From Bdellovibrionota bacterium (GTDB lineage: Bacteria > Bdellovibrionota > UBA1018 > CAUJDS01), in contig CAUJDS010000081.1 of the NCBI GenBank assembly GCA_963169695.1, positions 1-59,263 on the forward strand: 59,263 nt of DNA. The letters are read 5' to 3'. Position 1 is the first letter of the stretch; every line of letters starts with the position of its first letter. Position numbers and translations under genes: made by a program. This document shows positions 42,270-57,171 of the stretch, in pieces. Under the pieces are notes generated by a model that searched no databases, was not told the origin of the DNA, and saw nothing but the letters and a program-made list of their open reading frames with translations.

Positions 42270-44672
42270 ATGCGTCTCAAAACACCTCGTAAATGGGTCC
42301 TTTTATTGGCATCTCTTTTTCTGGTCCTTGTCCTGGCTGGCGTGCTGGGCGCTTACTGGTATTCACGAGCTGGGAGCAACACGTTGGTGAAGCCTGGTAG
42401 TGGAGGCATGATAGCTGGATTATCGGGGGAAGTAAGGATCGACCAAGATGCCAAGGGCATTCCCACCATTCGGAGCCAATCGACCCTGGACGCCTATCGA
42501 GCCCAGGGATGGATCGTGGCGCGAGATCGATTTTTTCAGATGGATCTTATGAGGCGCGCTACTTCTGGGCGGCTTTCGGAAATCCTTGGGTCCGGCCTAG
42601 TTTCTCTTGATCGATTGCATCGATGGGCGCGATTTCAGTTCATAGCGGAAAAGGCGGAGCAATCTCTGGATCCAGCCGTTCGTGAAGAAATGCTGGCTTA
42701 CGCGGATGGAGTCAATGCCTTCCTACAAAAGCACCCAGAAACTTTTGAGTCCAAAATCTTAGGCTACCACCCCGAGCCTTGGAAGCCCTCAGATTCTATT
42801 TTAGTAGCGCTCTCTCTTTTTGAACAGCTGGACTTCTTCACGCAATATGGAGCCGAGCGGATTCGAACCCTGGCTTCTGAAAAGCGTGCCCCGTCCGTAC
42901 TTTCGTTTTTGTTTTCGGATTTTGGATACCTAGACAGTCCTCAATTTCCAGATGCAGTACCGGGATCTTTGCCTCTGATTCCTGGCCCCGAAATCTTGGA
43001 TATTCGGAAAGAAAAAATGGATCTCCCAGACCCAAGTTTTGCAAGTCTAGATCACCAACCTGTTTTTGGAAGCAATGCCTGGGCCCTGTCAGGGAAGAAG
43101 ACTCAGTCAGGAAATCCGATCCTGGCGGGTGATCCACATTTAGCAATGATGCTTCCAAGTGTCTGGTATCGAATAAAGCTTGTGTCACCCGATTTTCAAG
43201 TAACGGGAGTTGCCATACCTGGAATGCCTGGAATTGTCATTGGACACTCAGACTTTGCAGCATGGACTTTTACGACCGCTTCGGGAGATTCGCTGGACCT
43301 GGTTGAATTAACGGATCGAGACAAGATTGAAAAATTCAAAGAGACTTTACCGGTTCGATTTGGAAAAGACGTAGAATATGAGCACGAGTGGTCGGAGTAC
43401 GGACCGGTCTACCAGGAAATCAACCAAAGAAAATTCGCCCTCAAGTGGGTTGCATTGGATCCCAATGTTTTGAGTAAAATGTCCGTGACGCCCCTAATGA
43501 AAGCTCGAAGCCATTCAGCCTTCAAGGACGCCATGCGCGGTTGGACAGGACCTATTCAGAATTTAATCTATACAACCCAAGAGGGTGATTTTGGTTGGCA
43601 GGTAGTGGGTGTTTTTCCAAAGCGCGTGGGAATCGACGGCAAACAGGCCTTTGTCTGGGATGAGCAGCACCGTTGGGACGGCTATCAGGCGAGCTCGGAT
43701 TTACCCGGCGTAGAGAACCCGTCCTCCGGTGTAGTAGCAAATGCCAATCAGCGAATGATTTCAAACGATTCCCCCATGAAAGACTGGTTCAATAATTATC
43801 CTGGGCCATCGCGCGGGTTTCGAATCCGAGAGGTCTTGGCCGAAAAAAATGATTGGACTTTGGAATCGATGAACACTTTGCAACTCGATCGCAAGAACCA
43901 TGAGTTTGATCTCTACTATCAAATTTTGACCGAAGCCCTTCAAGACGCAGAAGCGTTTTCGAAGCAAGGAATGGCTGACGCCCAATGGCTTGATGAGATT
44001 CGAAAGTTGCTTACCTCATGGAAAGGAGAAGTGGCCCTTGACCTGCCATCCTATGTCTTGATTCGAAAATTCAGAACGCTTTTGGTTCATTCACTTCTCA
44101 GTCCTATCCTTGGGATTGCAGTGCATAAGGATCCACTTCTGGATCGCGATACGTGGGGAATGTTTGATTGGTTCAATCCGTCACCGGCATTGCGGGCGCT
44201 CTGGTTGCAAAAACCTCTTCATCTTTTAACGCCTCCGTTTACGAGTTACCCCGAATTAGTTTTAAAGACTGCAGTGAAGGCAGCTAAGGCTTTGGCAGAT
44301 CAGCCCGAGGATTTAGAGACTCAGAACTGGGGAGATCATAATCGAGTGCAGATTGGGCATGCTTTTTCAAAGATTCTACCTGATTTTTTGGCAGGGGGCT
44401 TTCGAGTTCCAATCACTGGGTTTGACGGGGATCATTGGTCGCCCAAAGTCGGCGTGGAGTACAAAGGCTTTTTTCACTCCGCATCGATTCGGTGGGGATT
44501 TGAACAAGGAAAAGAAGAAATGGGAAAAGGCTACCTGCAGTTTCCAGGCGGACAATCCGGGCACTACCTGTCTTCTCACTTTAAAGATCAATACGATGGT
44601 TGGCTTCGCGGATCCATCGATCAATTAGAGCCCGGCAAAGCTGTGGTCGAGGACGTCCTTACGAATCGATAA
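42270..44672 (+). CDS. Penicillin acylase family protein (Ntn hydrolase)
   Basis: 800 residues, membrane-anchored or secreted through an N-terminal hydrophobic segment (residues 9-30). The alpha-chain part has RDRFFQMDLMRR near residue 85. The autoprocessing site is FGSNAWALSG, with Ser268 expected to become the N-terminal nucleophile of the beta chain, followed by DPHL and the oxyanion-region GMPGIVIGHSDFAAW. Family members cleave amides such as beta-lactam side chains and acyl-homoserine lactones; the substrate here is unknown. The 3' end overlaps the convergent MFS gene by 14 bases. Confidence 0.92.
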   Translation: MRLKTPRKWVLLLASLFLVLVLAGVLGAYWYSRAGSNTLVKPGSGGMIAGLSGEVRIDQDAKGIPTIRSQSTLDAYRAQGWIVARDRFFQMDLMRRATSGRLSEILGSGLVSLDRLHRWARFQFIAEKAEQSLDPAVREEMLAYADGVNAFLQKHPETFESKILGYHPEPWKPSDSILVALSLFEQLDFFTQYGAERIRTLASEKRAPSVLSFLFSDFGYLDSPQFPDAVPGSLPLIPGPEILDIRKEKMDLPDPSFASLDHQPVFGSNAWALSGKKTQSGNPILAGDPHLAMMLPSVWYRIKLVSPDFQVTGVAIPGMPGIVIGHSDFAAWTFTTASGDSLDLVELTDRDKIEKFKETLPVRFGKDVEYEHEWSEYGPVYQEINQRKFALKWVALDPNVLSKMSVTPLMKARSHSAFKDAMRGWTGPIQNLIYTTQEGDFGWQVVGVFPKRVGIDGKQAFVWDEQHRWDGYQASSDLPGVENPSSGVVANANQRMISNDSPMKDWFNNYPGPSRGFRIREVLAEKNDWTLESMNTLQLDRKNHEFDLYYQILTEALQDAEAFSKQGMADAQWLDEIRKLLTSWKGEVALDLPSYVLIRKFRTLLVHSLLSPILGIAVHKDPLLDRDTWGMFDWFNPSPALRALWLQKPLHLLTPPFTSYPELVLKTAVKAAKALADQPEDLETQNWGDHNRVQIGHAFSKILPDFLAGGFRVPITGFDGDHWSPKVGVEYKGFFHSASIRWGFEQGKEEMGKGYLQFPGGQSGHYLSSHFKDQYDGWLRGSIDQLEPGKAVVEDVLTNR

Positions 44673-46453: not shown

Positions 46454-49081
46454 TTATTTTGGTGTAGAGGCCAACGGCGACTGTTGAAGTTTATTCAGCT
46501 GGGCTCTTCCGTCCGGTGAAAGCTGGGCAGTAAGTACATTCACTTTGTCGCTTAAGTTTCTTGCTGGCGAGTCAATTCCTAATTCTACCATTCCAATGAG
46601 AGCTGCATTGGATGCCGATAGTCTTTTGGATTCGTAAAGAATTTCTTTGATCCGATCGGGCTTGATGGTCGCAAGTTTGGCTAAAACATCCGATTCAGGC
46701 GTGCGAGGACTCAGTGATTCTAGTAGCGCGGTCAGTGCTGCTAGTTCTTCATGGTAGTGGGTTAGTACCGAAAGTTGAGCAGCTTCCAACAGGGAGAGGG
46801 GGTCACAGTATTCTACCCGCCACTGCGCATCAATCCAAGTCCAACTGCTTGCACCGAGTACAGAGAGGGACCCCATGCTGAGGAAGGTTCTCGCCTTCGG
46901 CCATGGGATCTTTCCGTAAGTTCTTGCATAGGCCGCTTCTAAAAGACGAATGGGTCTTTGCATTATTTCGGGCGTTCGGGAGTATGCTTGAGCCGATTTT
47001 TCGAAAAGTGTCTGCAAAGACTTCCATTTAGATACGGCTCCTCCACCATTTTTTAAAAGAGAAGTAAGGAGGTAAACGGCCACTATTTTTTCCGAAAAAT
47101 CAAAAACCGGATCTCTTTCATGAAATTCAAATTGGCGTATTTTAATTTCTTGATAGCGTGGACTCCGGTCTACCGCATTGGCGAGAGCCCCTAAGGCTTC
47201 TCGCTGGGTAGGATCCAAAAACGCCTGAGTAGCAACTACATGAAAGAAAAGATTGAACTGATAGGGGTCAATCATGATTCGCTCGACAAAAGCATGAAGC
47301 TCGGTTTCCATTCGGCGTTGGTAGCGCGCGCGGGTAGACTCATCCAGCGGGGCGTCTGTCTTTTGGATAGCCGACTGGTAAGACTTCCGTCGAAATAAAA
47401 AGCGGCTCCAATCAGAATCCAGTGAAGTCGAGTCGAAAGAGTTCAGAGGCCGCTCTGTCTGATTTGGAAGGGTGCCAAACTGAATGGTAGATTCTAGCAC
47501 CATGGCCTCAAGATGTGATTCTCTCAACTTAAGAAGCTCATAAAGTTGTTGCGCGGAATCCTCTAGTCCAGGTTCATCTAATGTTGAAAGGTAACAAACA
47601 GACATCATCAAAAGATCTGATGGGTTGGTTGGAACTTGACCACTGCGGAGCGACTCTCGAAAGGCATCAGCGAGTTCTTTCATTTCTTCAAGGTTGATTC
47701 TTTCTAAAAATTGGATCTTGGTTTCTTTTTCTTGAGAACGGGATTCAAAGCGCCGGTCGTATTCCTGCGCTAACATTTCGGCAGAGGGGCCACGTAAGCT
47801 GATAGCAGCTCTGTCTTCATTGGCAAGGAGGCTCCGAATAAGAAAGTGCGAATACCATCCATGCCACTCAAATCTTTGAGTGCCTAAGAGCTTAACGATC
47901 TTTAGCACGCCTTCTTGGCGAGCAGTTTGGATCTGCCGGTCCTTATCGAAGGCGGCACGCTGATAAGAAGTCGAATGGGGTATCAGGTGTGAAGCAGTGT
48001 TCTGGAAGCCTTCCTCAATTCGAACAAGATTTGTTTGAAGTTCCAGGCTAGCTTCCCGTACAGGATGGTCCATTAATCCATAGAGGTAGCTAATGGACTC
48101 AGCCATTTTTTCTCCCAGCTGAATGAGGGACATTTTTTGCGCCGGAGTTCGATTAGGAAGCGTAGTGGAGGACCGAATTTGCTCCATATCACGAAAAATT
48201 TGATAAAGGGCGCGATCCATCTTTTGGACTTCGTAAGAGTGGATTGCTTCTTGAAAGAGCGGTTCGATTGCTTGGGTAATGCCAATTCCAAGCAGAAAAC
48301 CACCTACATTCCACTTCGCCCCTTTGATAAAAGAAGCATTGCCTTTGAGCCACTGAAGTCCACTACGGGCAACGGACAGAGTACCCATCGAAGCGGCCCA
48401 ACCGGCCGTCAATGCCATTAGTTTTTCTTGGGATATCTGATCATCTGCTTCACCATAGGCGGTCCAATCGGCGATGACGGGAGGAAAACCAAATGTTTCC
48501 TGGCTGGTTGAATGTAAGCGCTGTCCCACTAGCGGGCCTGACCAGGCCCCTAATGCCGGGAGTAGGTGACCCGCCATAGTGAGGCTCTCAGAAAGAAGGA
48601 CTTTCTTGGTTGCAGTGGCCAGTTTCAATGCGGTCAATCCCAAGAGAATGCCGGAGGCCGCGCCGTAGGACTGGCCCTTTTGGAGCCAAACTCTGCGATC
48701 AAAAACGCCGTAGCGCTTCTCCCAACGCTGCACTTGAAGGTAGTTTCTCAAGTGGGCCGTACCTTCCGGATCAGCATCCGCATGGGCCAAAATGAGTTCT
48801 AGCGTTTTTTGGTAGGAGTCGAGGATGGTCTGTCGTTGGGCGCCTACTGGCTCCAATAGAAACAAGGAATCCCCTAATTTTTTTCGAAGGCTTAGCAATG
48901 AAAGGTTGGCTTCGTAAGCAGCATCCTCATCATGAATATCGCGGGCACTAGCATAGTCTCTTGATGCCTGAAAATACCGATCGAGCATGTCCTTAGGAAC
49001 AAGCAGCCCTTCGTCCTGTGCATAGAGCAGAGTGCTCCAGACGAAAAGAAAAAGTACGACAAGGGAGCCGATCCTCCTCAT
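46454..49081 (-). CDS. Very large exported protein of unknown function (second of a pair)
   Basis: 875 residues. A signal peptide (RRIGSLVVLFLFVWSTLLYAQ) leads a mostly helical protein. Two hydrophobic regions near residues 132-180 (GAASGILLGLTALKLA; AGHLLPALGAW) and 222-275 (ALTAGWAASMGTLSVA; KWNVGGFLLGIGITQA) may be membrane hairpins. The rest is rich in charged helices, with no repeat or catalytic motif I can name. The start overlaps the stop of the preceding 961-residue gene as ATGA, so the two are made together. Confidence 0.75.
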   Translation of the reverse strand: MRRIGSLVVLFLFVWSTLLYAQDEGLLVPKDMLDRYFQASRDYASARDIHDEDAAYEANLSLLSLRKKLGDSLFLLEPVGAQRQTILDSYQKTLELILAHADADPEGTAHLRNYLQVQRWEKRYGVFDRRVWLQKGQSYGAASGILLGLTALKLATATKKVLLSESLTMAGHLLPALGAWSGPLVGQRLHSTSQETFGFPPVIADWTAYGEADDQISQEKLMALTAGWAASMGTLSVARSGLQWLKGNASFIKGAKWNVGGFLLGIGITQAIEPLFQEAIHSYEVQKMDRALYQIFRDMEQIRSSTTLPNRTPAQKMSLIQLGEKMAESISYLYGLMDHPVREASLELQTNLVRIEEGFQNTASHLIPHSTSYQRAAFDKDRQIQTARQEGVLKIVKLLGTQRFEWHGWYSHFLIRSLLANEDRAAISLRGPSAEMLAQEYDRRFESRSQEKETKIQFLERINLEEMKELADAFRESLRSGQVPTNPSDLLMMSVCYLSTLDEPGLEDSAQQLYELLKLRESHLEAMVLESTIQFGTLPNQTERPLNSFDSTSLDSDWSRFLFRRKSYQSAIQKTDAPLDESTRARYQRRMETELHAFVERIMIDPYQFNLFFHVVATQAFLDPTQREALGALANAVDRSPRYQEIKIRQFEFHERDPVFDFSEKIVAVYLLTSLLKNGGGAVSKWKSLQTLFEKSAQAYSRTPEIMQRPIRLLEAAYARTYGKIPWPKARTFLSMGSLSVLGASSWTWIDAQWRVEYCDPLSLLEAAQLSVLTHYHEELAALTALLESLSPRTPESDVLAKLATIKPDRIKEILYESKRLSASNAALIGMVELGIDSPARNLSDKVNVLTAQLSPDGRAQLNKLQQSPLASTPK

Positions 49082-51963
49082 CGCACTCTCCGTAGCGTTG
49101 CCAGAGATTCGATTCTTTGGAGATAACGGTAAGCATTTTCGGCTAATTCGCGATAGGCTGGAGAGGTCGATGTGCTTGCTCGAATGTTTGTAATTGCTTC
49201 CTCGAGAGATGCAAAATTCCCAGGTTCTAGACCTAAGTTTCGAAATGAGGATCTCGTTTTCAGGTAGCGTAATCCAGAGGATGCACTCGGGACTAAATCA
49301 GTGGCGAGAAAGAGTGGCAAGTCTAAGACGAGGAAGTGAAATCGACTGCTAGCGTAGGCGTCTTTCATTTGAAAATAATCCCTCGCAGAAAAATCACCCG
49401 ATCCCATAGCCCGCGCTTCCGAAAAGCGTCTCTTTTGTTCATTGAGCTCGTATTGTGGGCCAAGCAAATCATAGCCTCGCAGGACCATCGTGATCCGAAA
49501 ACTCCAAAGCATGGGACGAAGGAGCGATTGGGTGTAGAAGCCACTTCCTAGGAATCGCTGCAACCACTCGATCGCTTGTCCAGTTGCCGATTTTTTTAGA
49601 AATCCAATGGCTCGAAGTCCTATGTCACCCAAGAAAAAAAGAAAAGTCGGGCCGTGAAGTTGGTTTTGAAGTTTTTGGAGCGAGGACTGGGCGCTCGTAC
49701 GCAACGTCCAATCGCGATAGATTCGACCATAGGCTGGATAGAGTCCACTCATCATCCTCCCAAAGGCCGAAGCCATCAGTGGAGCAGCAAGTTCCTTGGG
49801 ATTTTTTGCAGAAGCGATTTCAGAAAGAATGGCTTGGATTTTTTCGTGAATTTGATGAGCCGCTTGTTGGATGGCTGATAGCGAGTTGGCGATGGCTTCA
49901 GGGGTCGGTGAATCGTCGGGACTCGAAACGAATGGGGCAAGTACTTGGCGCAATTCTAAGGTTTGGCCTTTATAGTTTATTTTTTCAAAAAGGATTCGGT
50001 ACGTGTCAAAGACTGCAATCTTAAGTGCTTCTCGAAAAGCATTGCGATAATCTCTGCGATCTTCAGCTTGGATGAGTATTTGTTTGAGGCTTGGGCCATT
50101 CGCTAGTGGTTTTAGATGAAATCCCATGCTGACGCCAAGTTGTATGATTTGCCAATCGAGGGATCGAATTTTCTTTTGAACTTCTTGATCTAAGTACTGA
50201 TCCAATGGGGTTGGTCGGTCAACGTAAGCATTGCGATTGTCCTCTAATAGCTTTGCTCGATGGAGAGACGAAAGTCGTTCCATTCTTAGGTACCCACCTT
50301 CGACGGATTCTTGACCCAAGAGGATCGCAATTCGATTGAGGTAGAGACCGCGCGCGCTCTCATAGTCTTTGGCCGTGGTGAGTGCCTCGAGGAGATCGAT
50401 CGACTCGGCTTCCACTGGTGCGCCGCCCCCCTGTAACTTACTCCATGCGATTTCAACTAAGATTCGAAGTTCGGGCACATCTGATTTTTCTTCCTCCTCA
50501 AAGCGCTTTGAGAGCGAAAACAACCATTTCCATCTCCGTTGATTTGCCTCATTTTTCTCTTTGGCTTTGCTCGTATTCGAAGCAGCGATCCACTCAGAAA
50601 GATTCAATGCTGGAAATAGTTCGAGGTATTTGGCAGCTCTTTTTTCGAGAAGTGGTCCAAGTTTGGTTGGATACCGTTCCAATTGCCCATGATTTTCGGC
50701 AACGATCAATGCCTTGAGATAGGGATCGCTTTGGATGGCTTCTTGAATCTTCCGCACCCTTTCGTATTCCACATGATCCAAAGGTAGATCGCCGTGAGTC
50801 GATAGTTCAATCAGAGGTAGGCACTCGCGATAGTCCTGAAGTCTTTCTAAGTAAGAAATAACGGTATCTACCCTTGCTTGGGTGACAAGATTTGCAAGAA
50901 GAGATGGAAGCGCTTCTGAATTAGTCTGAGACAAAAGGTGAGGAGTATTGGCCAAGGCTTTCTTGAGTTGTTCCAAGAATTGGGCCGACTCCATTTCTTG
51001 AATGAGTTGAGCGAGTTGGATTTGCCATTTCTTTCGCTCTTCGAGGGGCGGGGCATTGGAATGGGTTTGAGACAAGAGTGTGTCCGCTATTGCCAATGCA
51101 ATGGGCTCCATCAGGGATGGGTTTTTTTCCAGTTTGACGTCCTCAGCGGCCCGAAGCAGGGAAGCACGAAACTCAGTTTCTTGTTCTACCAGCCGAACAT
51201 CCTGCCGGACGCTATCTTGAAGAGGGAATCCACGAATGCGCTCAATCAATTCGGGAGGAGTGTTGAGGTCAGAAAAGGTTTCTTCTGGAAGTAGGACTCG
51301 CAGCTGTTCGTCCGCCGCCCATTTTTCTTTAGTAAGGAGGTAACTCGCGAGTTTGAAATATCCGTCGAGCGAAGGGCGACGTAGAAGAGCCAGGTTGACG
51401 TAGCGTTGGTAATGAGTATCCGAAGCCCTTAGTAATAGGTGAGTAGGACTCGTGGAATCAGAGGAGACTAGCCAAGGGGAGTAGGTGTCCCCGTCCTCCG
51501 ATTGAATAAAGCGCATTCGAAGTCGATTCTGGAGAGCGGCGGGGAAACGAAAGGCGTCACGCACCAAGGTTCCCTGCTGCGGGTAGATTTGGAAGGAAGC
51601 GCGCAACTCAATCAGGCGAGGAAGGACTTCGAGGAAGTAGACAGGGACCAATAGCGCCCCGTCATTCGGATGGGCTTCGAGAAAGACCTCTGCGCGTGCT
51701 TTCCACTCATAGACCTTCGATTCAAGATAGTCAGTAGGCCGCGGCGCACCTTGGTTTGGTGCAAAGTGCAGATCATAGAGGGCCTGGTCAATCTGGTAGG
51801 TGAGAGCTTTTCCGTCCAGATGAAAGGTCGCAGCCGTTTCCTCGGGTAACGGTTCTGACTGGGGCGCCTGGGCAAGGCAGGGAGAGTATAGAAGTCTGAG
51901 CGCTAGAACGATGAGCGCAAGCGGCAAAAAGGTAGCTCGGATAGAGACCAACCCATTTTTCAT
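49078..51963 (-). CDS. Very large exported protein of unknown function (first of a pair)
   Basis: 961 residues from the ATG at 51963; a TTG at 52008 is also in frame. A signal peptide (IRATFLPLALIVLALRLLYSPCLAQ) precedes a long helical protein with many Leu/Glu/Arg-rich stretches, which could be solenoid repeats, and hydrophobic patches only near residues 775-830 (FLFFLGDIGLRAIGFL). I recognise no family. Translationally coupled to the 875-residue partner and divergent from the small basic protein, porin-like and giant lipoprotein genes. Confidence 0.75.
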   Translation of the reverse strand: MKNGLVSIRATFLPLALIVLALRLLYSPCLAQAPQSEPLPEETAATFHLDGKALTYQIDQALYDLHFAPNQGAPRPTDYLESKVYEWKARAEVFLEAHPNDGALLVPVYFLEVLPRLIELRASFQIYPQQGTLVRDAFRFPAALQNRLRMRFIQSEDGDTYSPWLVSSDSTSPTHLLLRASDTHYQRYVNLALLRRPSLDGYFKLASYLLTKEKWAADEQLRVLLPEETFSDLNTPPELIERIRGFPLQDSVRQDVRLVEQETEFRASLLRAAEDVKLEKNPSLMEPIALAIADTLLSQTHSNAPPLEERKKWQIQLAQLIQEMESAQFLEQLKKALANTPHLLSQTNSEALPSLLANLVTQARVDTVISYLERLQDYRECLPLIELSTHGDLPLDHVEYERVRKIQEAIQSDPYLKALIVAENHGQLERYPTKLGPLLEKRAAKYLELFPALNLSEWIAASNTSKAKEKNEANQRRWKWLFSLSKRFEEEEKSDVPELRILVEIAWSKLQGGGAPVEAESIDLLEALTTAKDYESARGLYLNRIAILLGQESVEGGYLRMERLSSLHRAKLLEDNRNAYVDRPTPLDQYLDQEVQKKIRSLDWQIIQLGVSMGFHLKPLANGPSLKQILIQAEDRRDYRNAFREALKIAVFDTYRILFEKINYKGQTLELRQVLAPFVSSPDDSPTPEAIANSLSAIQQAAHQIHEKIQAILSEIASAKNPKELAAPLMASAFGRMMSGLYPAYGRIYRDWTLRTSAQSSLQKLQNQLHGPTFLFFLGDIGLRAIGFLKKSATGQAIEWLQRFLGSGFYTQSLLRPMLWSFRITMVLRGYDLLGPQYELNEQKRRFSEARAMGSGDFSARDYFQMKDAYASSRFHFLVLDLPLFLATDLVPSASSGLRYLKTRSSFRNLGLEPGNFASLEEAITNIRASTSTSPAYRELAENAYRYLQRIESLATLRRVR

Positions 51964-52074
51964 CAAGTACCCCGCCCGCAAACTAGCGCGTTCAACCTGC
52001 GAAATCAACCCAGGCCGGCCCGAACAATAAATAACGCTTGAAATCTACTTAAAATGGTGATTTCTAAGGGGCTT

Positions 52075-52338
52075 ATGAGTGAAACTACGAATTCAACGGC
52101 AACCGATGCAACCGCTCCCGCGGCTGAAACCTCGACCAAAAAAGCTCCTTTTTTCCCCCCAATTCCAGACCGAGCTAAATTAGGACGCCGAACGCTGCGA
52201 AGTATCGCGCGTAAGCGAAGAAAGATCCGTCTTGCTCAGGATACTGAGTTTGCCAAAGCCTATTTTGACGCCAAGAGTAAAAGATCTGCTTCAAAGCAGA
52301 AGGCTTTTAAGACGCGTCATACGAAGGCCGCTTCCTAA
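52075..52338 (+). CDS. Small basic protein with disordered N-terminus
   Basis: 87 residues from the ATG at 52075, with AAGGGG at the right distance; 52054 is an alternative start. The first 30 residues are Thr/Ala-rich (TNSTATDATAPAAETSTKK). The rest is strongly basic and helical (KLGRRTLRSIARKRRKIRLAQ; KSKRSASKQKAFKTRHTK). The composition suggests nucleic-acid binding, as in histone-like proteins. No family assigned. Confidence 0.65.
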   Translation: MSETTNSTATDATAPAAETSTKKAPFFPPIPDRAKLGRRTLRSIARKRRKIRLAQDTEFAKAYFDAKSKRSASKQKAFKTRHTKAAS

Positions 52339-52370
52339 GCCTAGTTGGCTTAGAACTCTAAACTTAATTA

Positions 52371-53858
52371 GTGTATTGCTTGGCTTCCTGGCCGATTGCT
52401 TCCCTTAGTTGGGAATGTTATTCCTCCAAGGTGTTCCCAGGATTGAGGTTCTTTTTATGGATCCTGACCGTAACCCTTTGGCTTACTCCTCTCGCAGGTG
52501 CCTGGGTCGCTCAATCTGAAGTTCTAGGTCCATCTCCACTCGAACTTGCCATTCGATCCTATAATTATTTAGAGGCAGATGAGCTATCAACGAACGGCAA
52601 GCCTTCAATTATCCCGGGCTTAAAGATTGGCGCTCATAAGGAATTTGTTGGAGAGCGTTTTGAAGGGGGCGTTGACGTAGACGCTTTTTTTTCGACTCGT
52701 GGACTTAAGAATAGCTACTTCTTGATTCGAGAAAGCTATATCGCTTCTTCCCGTCACTGGTCCGAAAATCAGCTCACGATAGGACGAAGGCTTCAAGAAT
52801 GGAGCCGATTGGATAGCTCTTGGGGCCTTGGAGTTTGGCAACCGCGGTCTCGATGGGACAACTTGGCGATTGAGGAAATGGGGTTATCGGGTGTCTTCTA
52901 TTCTCGTAAGATTCCGGGACTTGAAGTAGTGGCTTATTTGTCGCCTATTTTTGTTCCTGAGCAAGGGTCTGACTACAATATTGATCCCAATTCGGGAAAA
53001 GTGACCTCCTCTAATCCCTATGACCTGATTCCGCCCAATCAGGCGTTATTAAAAGAATCTAATCCAGTCCCAGTCCGGTACACGCTGAATAAACCCAACA
53101 TCGTTGAAGACATTATTTTGAAGGCGGGTGCGGGTGCATTGGTCCGAATTGGAAGGGAGCGTGGACCTTGGGGTAGGGCAGCGTATGGCTATAAACCCTA
53201 CAATCAACCTTTGCTGAGCTACGATCCTTTCAGTGTCGCTGGTGGCGAGAAGGAACTACGGGTTAATGTTTATCCGCGATTTATCTACCATCACGTTGCG
53301 ACCCTTGAAGGGGGCTATGAAAGTGGAATATGGGGTTCTGAACTTATGTTCCTGGGGGATTTTCCGGTTCAGGAGTCTAGGATTCCCATTCACGTCAACC
53401 AAGAAGTGTCCCAGGCTTTGATGGCAAGTTTGGCTGGCCATGTTCAGTACAACCCGTTTGGAAGGGGAAGAATGACCTGGACAGGGTCCTACCTAAAACG
53501 CTGGGGCGGATCGGAGCCTGATTCGGGTTCTCCCTTCATTGTCACTGGCGCGCATAGCCTTTTTGAAATTCGATATCCCTATCGCGAGGCGGTCCGATTG
53601 AGTTGGGAGTATGAATCTCCCTCCTCCCAATGGGCCTTCGGGCAAAAGATTACCTATGACTTTCCACTCACGGGAATGATCTGGTCAGGCGAGTTGGGCT
53701 ATCGCCCCGAAAAAAATTGGAAACTGAATTTGGGATACGACCTTATTGGAGTGGGGCCAAGTGCGGATAGCAGTATGGCAGAAACTGGAGGCACCAACTG
53801 GCTCTCTAGGATACGCCAGACCGATCGAGTTCGGGGGGAAATCTCTTATGCGTTTTAA
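52371..53858 (+). CDS. Outer-membrane beta-barrel protein
   Basis: Up to 495 residues. A signal peptide (FFLWILTVTLWLTPLAGAWVAQ) precedes a beta-rich chain with alternating aromatic strands (SRHWSENQLTIGRRLQEW, GRMTWTGSYLKRW, VRLSWEYESPSSQWAFGQKITYDF) and ends RGEISYAF, the terminal Phe expected for BAM-dependent barrels. The start is uncertain: GTG at 52371 is the longest and lacks a ribosome binding site; GTG at 52431 gives a more normal signal peptide. Its last 11 bases overlap the giant lipoprotein gene, so they are probably made together. Confidence 0.8.
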   Translation: MYCLASWPIASLSWECYSSKVFPGLRFFLWILTVTLWLTPLAGAWVAQSEVLGPSPLELAIRSYNYLEADELSTNGKPSIIPGLKIGAHKEFVGERFEGGVDVDAFFSTRGLKNSYFLIRESYIASSRHWSENQLTIGRRLQEWSRLDSSWGLGVWQPRSRWDNLAIEEMGLSGVFYSRKIPGLEVVAYLSPIFVPEQGSDYNIDPNSGKVTSSNPYDLIPPNQALLKESNPVPVRYTLNKPNIVEDIILKAGAGALVRIGRERGPWGRAAYGYKPYNQPLLSYDPFSVAGGEKELRVNVYPRFIYHHVATLEGGYESGIWGSELMFLGDFPVQESRIPIHVNQEVSQALMASLAGHVQYNPFGRGRMTWTGSYLKRWGGSEPDSGSPFIVTGAHSLFEIRYPYREAVRLSWEYESPSSQWAFGQKITYDFPLTGMIWSGELGYRPEKNWKLNLGYDLIGVGPSADSSMAETGGTNWLSRIRQTDRVRGEISYAF

Positions 53859-56800
53859 GAGCATTTTTTGGATAATTGCAGTGACTATTGCACTGTCTTT
53901 TTCACAGCTCGGGTGTGGATATTTTAAAGAAGGTGGAGCGCCAAAACAAAATGGGCTTAATCTTACCAATTCCCTGGGATGTCTCAATCAGTTTGATGCA
54001 AAAATACGTAACTACTTTAAAGGAAGATCAGTTCAAGATAGTCAGGAAGTTGAGCAAAATTCAAAAGATGTTGAAGCAGTCTTAGATTGCGGTGTTAATG
54101 CGCTCTCCTTTTTTATGGATCATGTCCGAGGAGAAAGCCGAGACGCCAAAACTACCAAATACATCATCTCAGATCATTATACGCCAGATGAGCTGAAGCG
54201 GTTTCTAGAAACCTATCTCTTAGATCAGAAGCGACTACCGAACACGCTTGTGTCAGGCCTGATGAGCCTTAAGGTAGCGCTGTTGGGTGGGGATGCCAAT
54301 CACCTCAGTCGAACGGATATACAACGCATTCAAACTATTCTTCGAACCCTGAAGATTCCCGCCAGAGCCATGGCTTCTTTTATGCCCCTCACGATGGAAC
54401 GTGCAAAAACAATGTCCTTAGAAGAAATAAGGAGCGCAGGACGTGCGTTGGAAGCCGCAGGTGAAATCGTTGGAACTACCCTTTCCTCTAGTGCCAAATC
54501 CTATTCTTTGGACGATTTCAAGCTCTTGTTAGGTGCGGTATCTGAGGTCTACGAAAACGGAGATTCCGGCACTGGTCCGCGTTATTTTCTTTCTCACATT
54601 AAGGTCTTTCAGGGTCTGAAATTGGTCTTTGTTGGAGACGGAATCAATGCCGTACGCCAAGACCAATGGAAAGAACTCATTAAGATGGGAGCGAGGCTTT
54701 ATTCCCTTCAGTTGTTTGTCAGCTACTTAAGCCATGAAAAAGAAAAGACCGATTCAGCACCCAATCCGAATGGCAAGGGAGTGGAACGCCGACAATGGGA
54801 ACTCATCCTAACAGGAGTGGAAGAAGGATTATCTATCCTCCTACGGGCTGCGGACAATCACGCCGAAAACTACTTGGCGGATGCAACCCTTGGAACCAGT
54901 GGGGTGACAGCTGATTCACTCACTGTTCTTTTGAGGGCATTAGTGGACAGTTTATTACTCCCTCAGTCGCTCGATGTTGAGAACTTTGTCAGTGCAGCGA
55001 TGGGACTAAAGGTTGCCGTAGTGGGTGGGACGCGAAACAAAATTCATCGCGAGGAAATTCGTCAGTTTCAGACCATGCTTCAGGCAATACGAGGCCCCTT
55101 CTTGGAGGTCGCGGACTTCTTTCCTTTGAAGGCCTCGAATCCAGGTTTTGAAGATCCACAGTGGGTCGATCAGGCAAGTCAAGCTTATGGAAAGCTTTTG
55201 AAAATTGGTGGATCCCTCGTTGAGACGAGTGCCACCACCTATGCATTTGAAGACTTTGAACTTATTGTCAAATCACTCTCCGACCTGGTTGAAGCTCCCC
55301 CGACAGGCAATTGGATTACCTTTTTGAAGAGTAATGCTGATTTGATTCGAGCCTTTAAGGGCGCACTTCTTGGCGGGAAATCCAACGAGATTGAGAAAGA
55401 AAAATGGAAAACACTTTTTGAATCCAGTGATGAAGCCATCCGACTTTATCTAGGAGTGCAACACCTTTTCAGCGGCCACTTCAAACATTGGACCTACGGA
55501 GAGGGACTACATTTTTTTACCAATTTGGCGAACAACTTCTTTCAGTTTTTTGAAAAAATAATCGAGCAACAAGATCCCGATCGCTGGGGACAGCGAGTCC
55601 TCTCATTCGAAAAAATGAAAACCCTCCTTGCTGCAATTGCTAAAGCAGGGTGGCTGCCAGAAGGATTAACTCCAGAAACTGTCTACGAAACCTTGGTGGA
55701 CGCGACACGGCAGATATTGAGGGTCAGACATTCAACAATTGAGCCTAAGGACGTGACTGGGATCTCCATAGAGTCCTTGAGGGTAATAGAAAAAGCCTTT
55801 CATCAGTGGCAGCGCAGGCAGGAAGTGCTGGCGGAGTTGTTCTTAAAAGCGGCAAAGGGCGACGAACGCGAACTTTTTGGTGTAACGATCAAACGCACGG
55901 ATATCCTTGATTACTTAATTAAGTTGCCAGGCCGACTCCCTGAGCTCGAGGAAATGGTAGCGCGCCATGCACCCATGTTTGATCTCAATCAAGATTACGT
56001 AACGATTGACCCAATTAATATGCCGAGTGAATTTTCTTTCTTCGGCCTATCCGAAATAAACTGGTGCCGCGAGCTCATTCTATTTCTGACTGAGGGATAT
56101 GTTGAAGATGAGGCCCGAACCCATCCAATTAAGCGGATATTAGTAAACGAGCTTCGAAACTTCTATGAATTTACTCGACCGCTTGGAATCCAATTAAAAT
56201 GGGTTGATCCTCGGTTTCGAGATTCCGCCGAGGGACGATTTTTAGAGGCTGGACTTTTTACTAAGAGTGGAGACGGAGATGCGTTTCTTGACGAATTTGA
56301 AGGCACCGAGGAATTTATCCTTCTTGTAAAAGGTAGGTCTCGTGCTCGCCTGAACCACGATAAAATTGCAAGACTTTGTAGTAAGGGTGCTCCACTCGAG
56401 CTGGATACCTTTGGACTGCCGCTGATCGATGCGACTTGTTATCGTGATCAGTTCTATGATGCGAGTGCCCTTTCAGAACATTGGGCGGGCCTGCCGGGAC
56501 TCGTTCAATACTACAATGGACTGGATGCCAATAAGAAAAAGGAATTTCAAAGAGTTTTCGAAAGTGCCGCTCGCCGGGGCGGGTACCTAGCAGAAGGCAA
56601 ATTTGAAAGCTCAGACTCAGAAGCCTATATGATCCTAGCTTACTATTTGGAAGGGGTTTTCCTGAAGTTTGATTCCCCTGGCGCAAATGGAAAATCAGCA
56701 GATGGCGTATTGAGATTTAACGAATTGATACCTCCCAATGAAGCAGGATTTGAAGATAAAAAATATGCGCTTTCTGTGCTTTATCCTACCTTGCAAACCC

Positions 56801-57171
56801 TGGCCAAAGGTCAAAATATTCAATTGAATAAGAGTGCCTCGAAAGTCCTCTTTAGTTATGTCCTTATGAAGGGAAAAGTCGCTGGATCCTCAAGAATGGG
56901 GATTTGGTATTCTACAACCTTTGAAAGCAGTATCTTTGCAGATCGAATGGCGATTTTGCGCGTGATAGGAATTCTGAAAAACCCTCAGTCCATGTCCGCT
57001 AGTGGTCAGGAGAAAGAAACAACCTCATCCAAAGATGACCTAGGGAAGAATGCAACTTCGGATTGGCCTGAGGTTCAAGAAATGGCTGACATCTGGCGGC
57101 AGACTGCTGAAAAAATAACGGACCTTCAGCAGAAAAAGGCGAAAGAAAGTAAGAAAGTAGATAAAAAGTAG
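53848..57171 (+). CDS. Giant lipoprotein with tandem duplicated modules, unknown function
   Basis: 1107 residues from the ATG at 53848, which has GGGGGG upstream and overlaps the barrel gene by 11 bases; the frame is open to 53746 within that gene. The lipobox ends at Cys23 (SQLGC). Residues 110-345 and 354-590 are related modules: MSLKVALLGG with NHL and MGLKVAVVGG with NKI mark the first half of each, LKLVFVGDGIN and FKGALLGGKSN the second. A third, degraded copy may start near residue 592. The C-terminal half (from about 700) is different and has SDSEAYMILAYYLEG near residue 922. A Lys-rich end (KKAKESKKVDKK) closes it. I recognise no family. Confidence 0.78.
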   Translation: MRFKSIFWIIAVTIALSFSQLGCGYFKEGGAPKQNGLNLTNSLGCLNQFDAKIRNYFKGRSVQDSQEVEQNSKDVEAVLDCGVNALSFFMDHVRGESRDAKTTKYIISDHYTPDELKRFLETYLLDQKRLPNTLVSGLMSLKVALLGGDANHLSRTDIQRIQTILRTLKIPARAMASFMPLTMERAKTMSLEEIRSAGRALEAAGEIVGTTLSSSAKSYSLDDFKLLLGAVSEVYENGDSGTGPRYFLSHIKVFQGLKLVFVGDGINAVRQDQWKELIKMGARLYSLQLFVSYLSHEKEKTDSAPNPNGKGVERRQWELILTGVEEGLSILLRAADNHAENYLADATLGTSGVTADSLTVLLRALVDSLLLPQSLDVENFVSAAMGLKVAVVGGTRNKIHREEIRQFQTMLQAIRGPFLEVADFFPLKASNPGFEDPQWVDQASQAYGKLLKIGGSLVETSATTYAFEDFELIVKSLSDLVEAPPTGNWITFLKSNADLIRAFKGALLGGKSNEIEKEKWKTLFESSDEAIRLYLGVQHLFSGHFKHWTYGEGLHFFTNLANNFFQFFEKIIEQQDPDRWGQRVLSFEKMKTLLAAIAKAGWLPEGLTPETVYETLVDATRQILRVRHSTIEPKDVTGISIESLRVIEKAFHQWQRRQEVLAELFLKAAKGDERELFGVTIKRTDILDYLIKLPGRLPELEEMVARHAPMFDLNQDYVTIDPINMPSEFSFFGLSEINWCRELILFLTEGYVEDEARTHPIKRILVNELRNFYEFTRPLGIQLKWVDPRFRDSAEGRFLEAGLFTKSGDGDAFLDEFEGTEEFILLVKGRSRARLNHDKIARLCSKGAPLELDTFGLPLIDATCYRDQFYDASALSEHWAGLPGLVQYYNGLDANKKKEFQRVFESAARRGGYLAEGKFESSDSEAYMILAYYLEGVFLKFDSPGANGKSADGVLRFNELIPPNEAGFEDKKYALSVLYPTLQTLAKGQNIQLNKSASKVLFSYVLMKGKVAGSSRMGIWYSTTFESSIFADRMAILRVIGILKNPQSMSASGQEKETTSSKDDLGKNATSDWPEVQEMADIWRQTAEKITDLQQKKAKESKKVDKK
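54175..55617 (+). repeat. Protein-level tandem duplication inside the giant lipoprotein
   Basis: Two modules of about 240 residues (codons 54175-54882 and 54907-55617). Each contains an LP-rich helix, a K-A-hydrophobic-GG turn, a DI/EI-Q helix, an SYSLDDFKLLL or TYAFEDFELIV helix, and a second GG/GD-N turn. The similarity is seen in protein, not as DNA repeats, so the duplication is old. Confidence 0.7.

Follow-up and report, generated by a model that had tools for sequence, protein, structure and literature searches.

Complexes of an outer-membrane barrel with a lipoprotein are already known, among them LptDE, SusCD, AlgE-AlgK and OmpC-MlaA. AlgE and AlgK are the alginate export barrel of Pseudomonas and its TPR lipoprotein, AlgK being a helical outer-membrane lipoprotein. 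Does the phylum Bdellovibrionota hold a further pair of this kind? We analyzed a stretch of 59,263 nucleotides from a Bdellovibrionota bacterium (assembly GCA_963169695.1, contig CAUJDS010000081.1; contig C81 in a draft genome of 2.79 Mb), hereafter the window, in which the gene for a beta-barrel overlaps the gene for a very large lipoprotein. The pair shares with LptD-LptE the combination of a barrel and a lipoprotein partner. Barrel-lipoprotein complexes are known as such; for this pair no name was found, and a literature search that excluded subscription journals and supplements returned no description of it.

Because the two genes adjoin at almost every locus retrieved across the phylum, diverge together and share a conserved overlap of 11 nucleotides, we infer that they encode one coupled outer-membrane unit of undescribed families. 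An earlier note, made from the letters of the window alone, had already suggested that the barrel and a coupled lipoprotein lie in the outer membrane, and adjacency, co-divergence, the overlap and the predicted fold and lipobox bear it out. The pair appears to be ancient and to have evolved together across Bdellovibrionota. Its features are, in window coordinates:

52371..53858, plus strand: outer-membrane beta-barrel (F1 family), 495-residue open reading frame, ending in Y-A-F
53848..57171, plus strand: large helical outer-membrane lipoprotein (F0 family), 1107 residues, LGC lipobox, Cys23
53848..53858, plus strand: 11-nucleotide barrel/lipoprotein gene overlap, ATGCGTTTTAA, the lipoprotein start codon lying within the final barrel codons
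52782..52859, plus strand: barrel signature element, from a 20-sequence alignment
56671..56724, plus strand: site of the EF-hand loop of relatives, window loop DSPGANGKSADGVLRFNE, from a 49-sequence comparison

Distribution and coupling of the gene pair

Relatives of the barrel were found in 46 of 58 near genomes and relatives of the lipoprotein in 47 of 58. A barrel profile matches 187 of 241 genomes sampled across Bdellovibrionota, commonly with two copies each; Bdellovibrio bacteriovorus HD100 and another complete genome of the same family each carry two. Both HD100 barrels are on the minus strand, at about 2268043-2269410 and 2323594-2325027. The nearest named barrel-bearing contigs belong to metagenome bins of Oligoflexia, Bdellovibrionales and Bacteriovoracaceae. 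At loci of the same order or class, the barrel is followed by a lipoprotein gene on the same strand wherever the contig permits. In HD100 and in genomes farther removed the two genes adjoin as well, a single locus excepted. A further 15 loci come mainly from the remotest families that have the barrel; in all 15 the lipoprotein adjoins it, lying once upstream and once on the opposite strand. Such conservation clearly indicates that barrel and lipoprotein are real genes. The genome of the window carries a second pair on contig C48 (L023). Two pairs stand in tandem within a single locus in L111 and again in L112, which suggests local duplication as the origin of the paralogues.

How closely are the two genes tied? 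In 52 of 55 intact barrel genes, the first base of the lipoprotein ATG stands exactly ten bases ahead of the final base of the barrel stop codon. In the window this overlap reads TATGCGTTTTAA, and its ATG opens the lipoprotein signal peptide. Since the barrel ends in Tyr-x-Phe-stop, the ATG is possible only if the tyrosine is encoded by TAT and the next codon begins with G. This tyrosine is indeed TAT in 54 of 54 genes, as against 53% for the other tyrosines of the same genes, although the overlap sequences are not independent of one another. The overlap is retained at 8 of the 15 further loci deep in the phylum. Selection is the simplest reading of the conserved codon and overlap, because at a protein identity of about 25% synonymous sites should be saturated.

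The two proteins have also diverged in step. Distances in the barrel and lipoprotein trees (49 sequences each) correlate at 0.856, while the largest value in 500 permutations was 0.184. Matching clades occur in both trees, namely a short-lipoprotein clade, one of 1150–1180 residues and the HD100-type clades, and many paralogous clades correspond. This matching of paralogue clades points to barrel and lipoprotein as partners.

Predicted architecture of barrel and lipoprotein

AlphaFold predicts for the barrel an all-beta fold that forms a full barrel (mean pLDDT 81.7, pTM 0.82), with about 18–20 strands. The leading Foldseek matches are all outer-membrane porins, OccAB channels and AlgE, with E values down to 2e-11. 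Among the best 50 matches AlgE has the top TM-score by query length (0.51); the comparison of the barrel with AlgE, a barrel of 18 strands, gives 0.46–0.51 by query length at a root-mean-square deviation of about 10 Å. With a signal peptide (GLRFFLWILTVTLWLTPLAGA), an all-beta closed fold in the model and a C-terminal aromatic beta-signal, the protein has the predicted hallmarks of an outer-membrane beta-barrel. Almost every relative ends in the same way as the window copy with its Y-A-F. Translation may in truth begin at 52431 or 52443 instead of 52371. A highly conserved signature rich in W, D and R, GR-x4-WS-x-LD-x2-W-x-LG-x-WQPR-x-RWD, runs through the family, and G138, R139, W144, D148, W151, P158, W162 and D163 are invariant or nearly so in the 20-sequence alignment. 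In the model it is part of a strand-helix-loop element, which probably reaches into the barrel lumen. A profile search of the PDB with the barrel gave no match.

The lipobox pattern is present in 46 of 49 lipoproteins. The residue at +2 is mostly Gly or Ser, and Asp in two. With a lipobox cysteine and no inner-membrane retention Asp at +2, the window protein is predicted to be an outer-membrane lipoprotein. Cysteines 23 (the lipobox), 45 and 81 are conserved in 49 of 49 sequences and 844 and 864 in 48 of 49, suggesting that the four outside the lipobox form two disulphides. AlphaFold models the protein as all-helical and shows some seventeen helix-short strand-helix junctions. Lengths in the family range from 740 to 1240 residues; the window protein has 1107 as against 740–850 for most, because it contains an internal repeat of about 245 residues. 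Near the C-terminus, a canonical EF-hand loop occurs in 15 of 49 lipoproteins, the L076 protein among them, always in the same region, where shuffling predicts 0.1. Pfam EF-hand models give sub-threshold matches in 7 of 13 lipoproteins, and a profile search of PDB sequences with the lipoprotein finds ALG-2 (E 1.5e-6).

We favor a two-protein outer-membrane complex, with the other three genes of the locus separate, and give this reading a probability of roughly 0.72. Barrel and lipoprotein would be made in step through translational coupling. The lipoprotein, anchored in the outer membrane, would cap or line the barrel from the periplasmic or the cell-surface side, possibly by EF-hand-like helical hairpins that bind calcium in part of the family and are degenerate in the window copy. 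As a channel or export platform, the complex may move or hold a specific, probably large, envelope substrate, and the paralogous pairs would serve different substrates.

What might this substrate be? The second pair of the window genome lies near genes for a UDP-glucose dehydrogenase, a GT2 glycosyltransferase and an LPG_synthase_TM protein. One HD100 pair (L107:8047-11864) is oriented divergently to genes for a heptosyltransferase and a Kdo transferase; to judge by gene sizes and the tally of families, L105, L113 and L116 may be arranged likewise. In one draft genome (L131:2332-5445; G088:C78), an open reading frame of 1037 residues runs in frame from an MFS transporter through a PlsC-type acyltransferase into the barrel; an internal signal-peptide-like stretch precedes the barrel part, and the lipoprotein gene then follows. 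The fusion is genuine or else an artefact of assembly. An acyltransferase-like gene also stands beside a pair in a relative, both cases falling in one distant family. These neighbors, the barrel-acyltransferase fusion and AlgE among the top folds make a glycan or lipid the leading, if weak, guess. Among 127 pair neighbors scanned, no family stood beside more than five pairs and there was no universal companion.

Several observations weigh against the two-protein complex or parts of it. Two lipoproteins (L061, L063) have no barrel neighbor, and the barrel at L110, the exception mentioned above, has no lipoprotein. Confidence in the lipoprotein model is low (pLDDT 69.7, pTM 0.55), and a fold search of the PDB with it gave no match above noise. 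The loop of the window copy, DSPGANGKSADGVLRFNE, is lengthened and non-canonical. The best TM-score of the barrel to any solved barrel is only about 0.5, so that function is not readable from its fold. The neighbors of the pair differ between lineages, which makes glycan or lipid involvement weak. Shared species descent contributes part of the agreement between the two trees.

The other three genes and rival explanations

The remaining features of the locus are:

49078..51963, minus strand: 961-residue exported protein, ATG at 51963, end at 49078
46454..49081, minus strand: 875-residue exported protein, an orphan open reading frame
52075..52338, plus strand: small basic protein, 87 residues from MSETTNS, start chosen by comparison of homologues
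51964..52074, no strand: divergent intergenic region of 111 nucleotides, inferred from gene orientation only

All five open reading frames were confirmed at their positions in the window, and the earlier note was also right that none belongs to a known family: Pfam and NCBIfam gave no family for any of the five proteins, and PHROGs none for the four searched. Its further proposal, that all five may make up a single envelope machine with a common divergent control region, now appears very improbable. In its favor, all but one of the proteins carry export signals, the genes are compact and divergent, and the frames of the 961- and 875-residue proteins overlap by 4 nucleotides. Against it, neither protein has a match in 57 relatives, which mostly carry the barrel-lipoprotein pair. 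A consensus scan, which is weak evidence, found no sigma-70-like promoter in the gap 51964-52074, leaving the proposed control region unsupported.

Where, then, do relatives of the minus-strand proteins occur? Across the phylum, the 961-residue protein has weak single-sequence matches only. One of these led to a family of about 1040–1095 residues in four genomes of one distant family, and a profile comparison aligns the two over 709 columns (probability 96.5, E 9e-10). There the 961-like gene sits in a different operon and is followed by a gene for 420–500 residues; the contigs that hold it contain neither barrel nor lipoprotein. The earlier note had itself named scattering of the genes in relatives as an argument against a five-gene set, and this is what the 961-like family displays. 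By conservation of neighborhood, the proposed grouping stands for barrel and lipoprotein, fails for the 961/875-residue pair and extends to the small protein in part of the order. The minus-strand pair thus appears unrelated to the barrel-lipoprotein unit, and it and the small protein would act separately.

Both minus-strand proteins have an N-terminal hydrophobic segment of Sec type, and neither has an acceptable lipobox. A 976-residue version of the larger one, from a TTG at 52008, is less likely. The two were rejected as mutual paralogues on comparison. The 875-residue protein showed no significant similarity to the protein encoded next after the 961-like one, though similar hydrophobic stretches occur in both. 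No phage match was found for the 961-residue protein, and no match in plasmids for the 875-residue protein. In the distant family, the operon of L094, L102, L103 and L104 encodes a giant protein (up to 2149 residues), an exported protein of 264–296 residues, the 961-like protein and its 420–500-residue partner; nearly all of its genes are without families. Near the locus of the window, at 42270-44672, lies a penicillin-amidase family protein (E 1.5e-142).

In several relatives a homologue of the small basic protein is encoded directly ahead of the barrel, and a DUF4442 gene frequently stands between the two; none lies beside the HD100 pairs. It is a conserved neighbor in only part of the order and probably stands outside the barrel-lipoprotein unit. 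The family (62–113 residues; motif AKAFF-AKSKRSTDKK-AFRKKKKKK) keeps its place close to the barrel and a DUF4442 gene in many relatives, and has the look of a small protein that associates with nucleic acids or ribosomes.

Other functions for the pair itself have to be weighed. Could it be a nutrient importer laid out like SusC/SusD, with a porin under a surface lipoprotein lid that binds oligosaccharides or peptides, and paralogues that differ in diet? The shared operon of a barrel with a large helical lipoprotein, the presence of several paralogous pairs in a genome, and best fold matches that take in general porins and OccAB speak for such an importer; however, no TonB plug or receptor family was matched and the neighbors are as a rule not catabolic genes, so that we consider it unlikely, if credible. 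A role in outer-membrane lipid or lipopolysaccharide homeostasis, in a layout like that of OmpC-MlaA, draws on the lipopolysaccharide-core genes divergent to the Bdellovibrio pairs and on the acyltransferase genes fused to or beside the pair. These links are limited to certain lineages, however, and 10 of the 15 genomes checked have LptD as a gene of its own; we regard this role as rather improbable.

Calcium enters two further proposals. According to one, which we hold to be quite unlikely, an AlgE-like barrel is gated by the calcium state of a giant EF-hand-array lipoprotein, giving an export or contact machine typical of Bdellovibrionota that was duplicated into two or more specialised versions for building the unusual surface of the predator or for prey handling. 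The other, a calcium-dependent device with which predatory bacteria would make prey or surface contact, fits the two copies each in HD100 and the other complete genome of its family, the EF-hand loops in part of the lipoprotein family and the use of a calcium buffer in predatory culture of HD100 (PMC10769870). It is decidedly doubtful, however: surface exposure is without evidence, one of the two HD100 lipoproteins has no EF-hand match, and many carriers are uncultured and of unknown lifestyle.

Comparison with described systems

Many outer-membrane proteins of Bdellovibrio-like predators have no known function. Of 100 outer-membrane proteins predicted in HD100, a 2010 study listed over 60% as unknown (PMC2797640). 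The pair described here is conserved, coupled and present twice in this model predator without a family name, and its function is therefore directly testable there. The overlap, kept at only about 25% protein identity, offers a clear example from nature of translational coupling, apparently under selection, of an outer-membrane channel to its partner.

How does the pair compare with the systems named at the outset? By family matches it would belong neither with LptD nor with SusCD, and by sequence match not with AlgE. The barrel was rejected as LptD, having no PF04453 match, and the genome of the window has a separate LptD gene (G000:C28). Likeness to the capsule-assembly barrel Wzi is limited to a marginal Pfam match in one of 20 barrels (E 0.039, below any cut-off), the other 19 giving none. 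The Foldseek matches include general porins and the porin chains of MlaA complexes; unlike OmpC-MlaA, the barrel is unrelated in sequence and is paired with a lipoprotein that is much larger and differently built. SusC-SusD of Bacteroidota have the same operon of barrel and large helical lipoprotein, and likewise several paralogous pairs per genome. In contrast to SusC, however, this barrel has about 450 residues and no TonB plug, and the lipoprotein is not SusD by Pfam; neither Pfam nor NCBIfam gave a SusC or SusD match. AlgE-AlgK resembles the pair in joining a barrel of about 440–490 residues to a helical lipoprotein. The pair differs from it in lacking a match to the alginate-export or TPR families of Pfam (for alginate export, 20 barrels searched at E up to 1), in having no alginate genes identified beside it, and in a lipoprotein of 740–1240 residues that carries EF-hand-type motifs.

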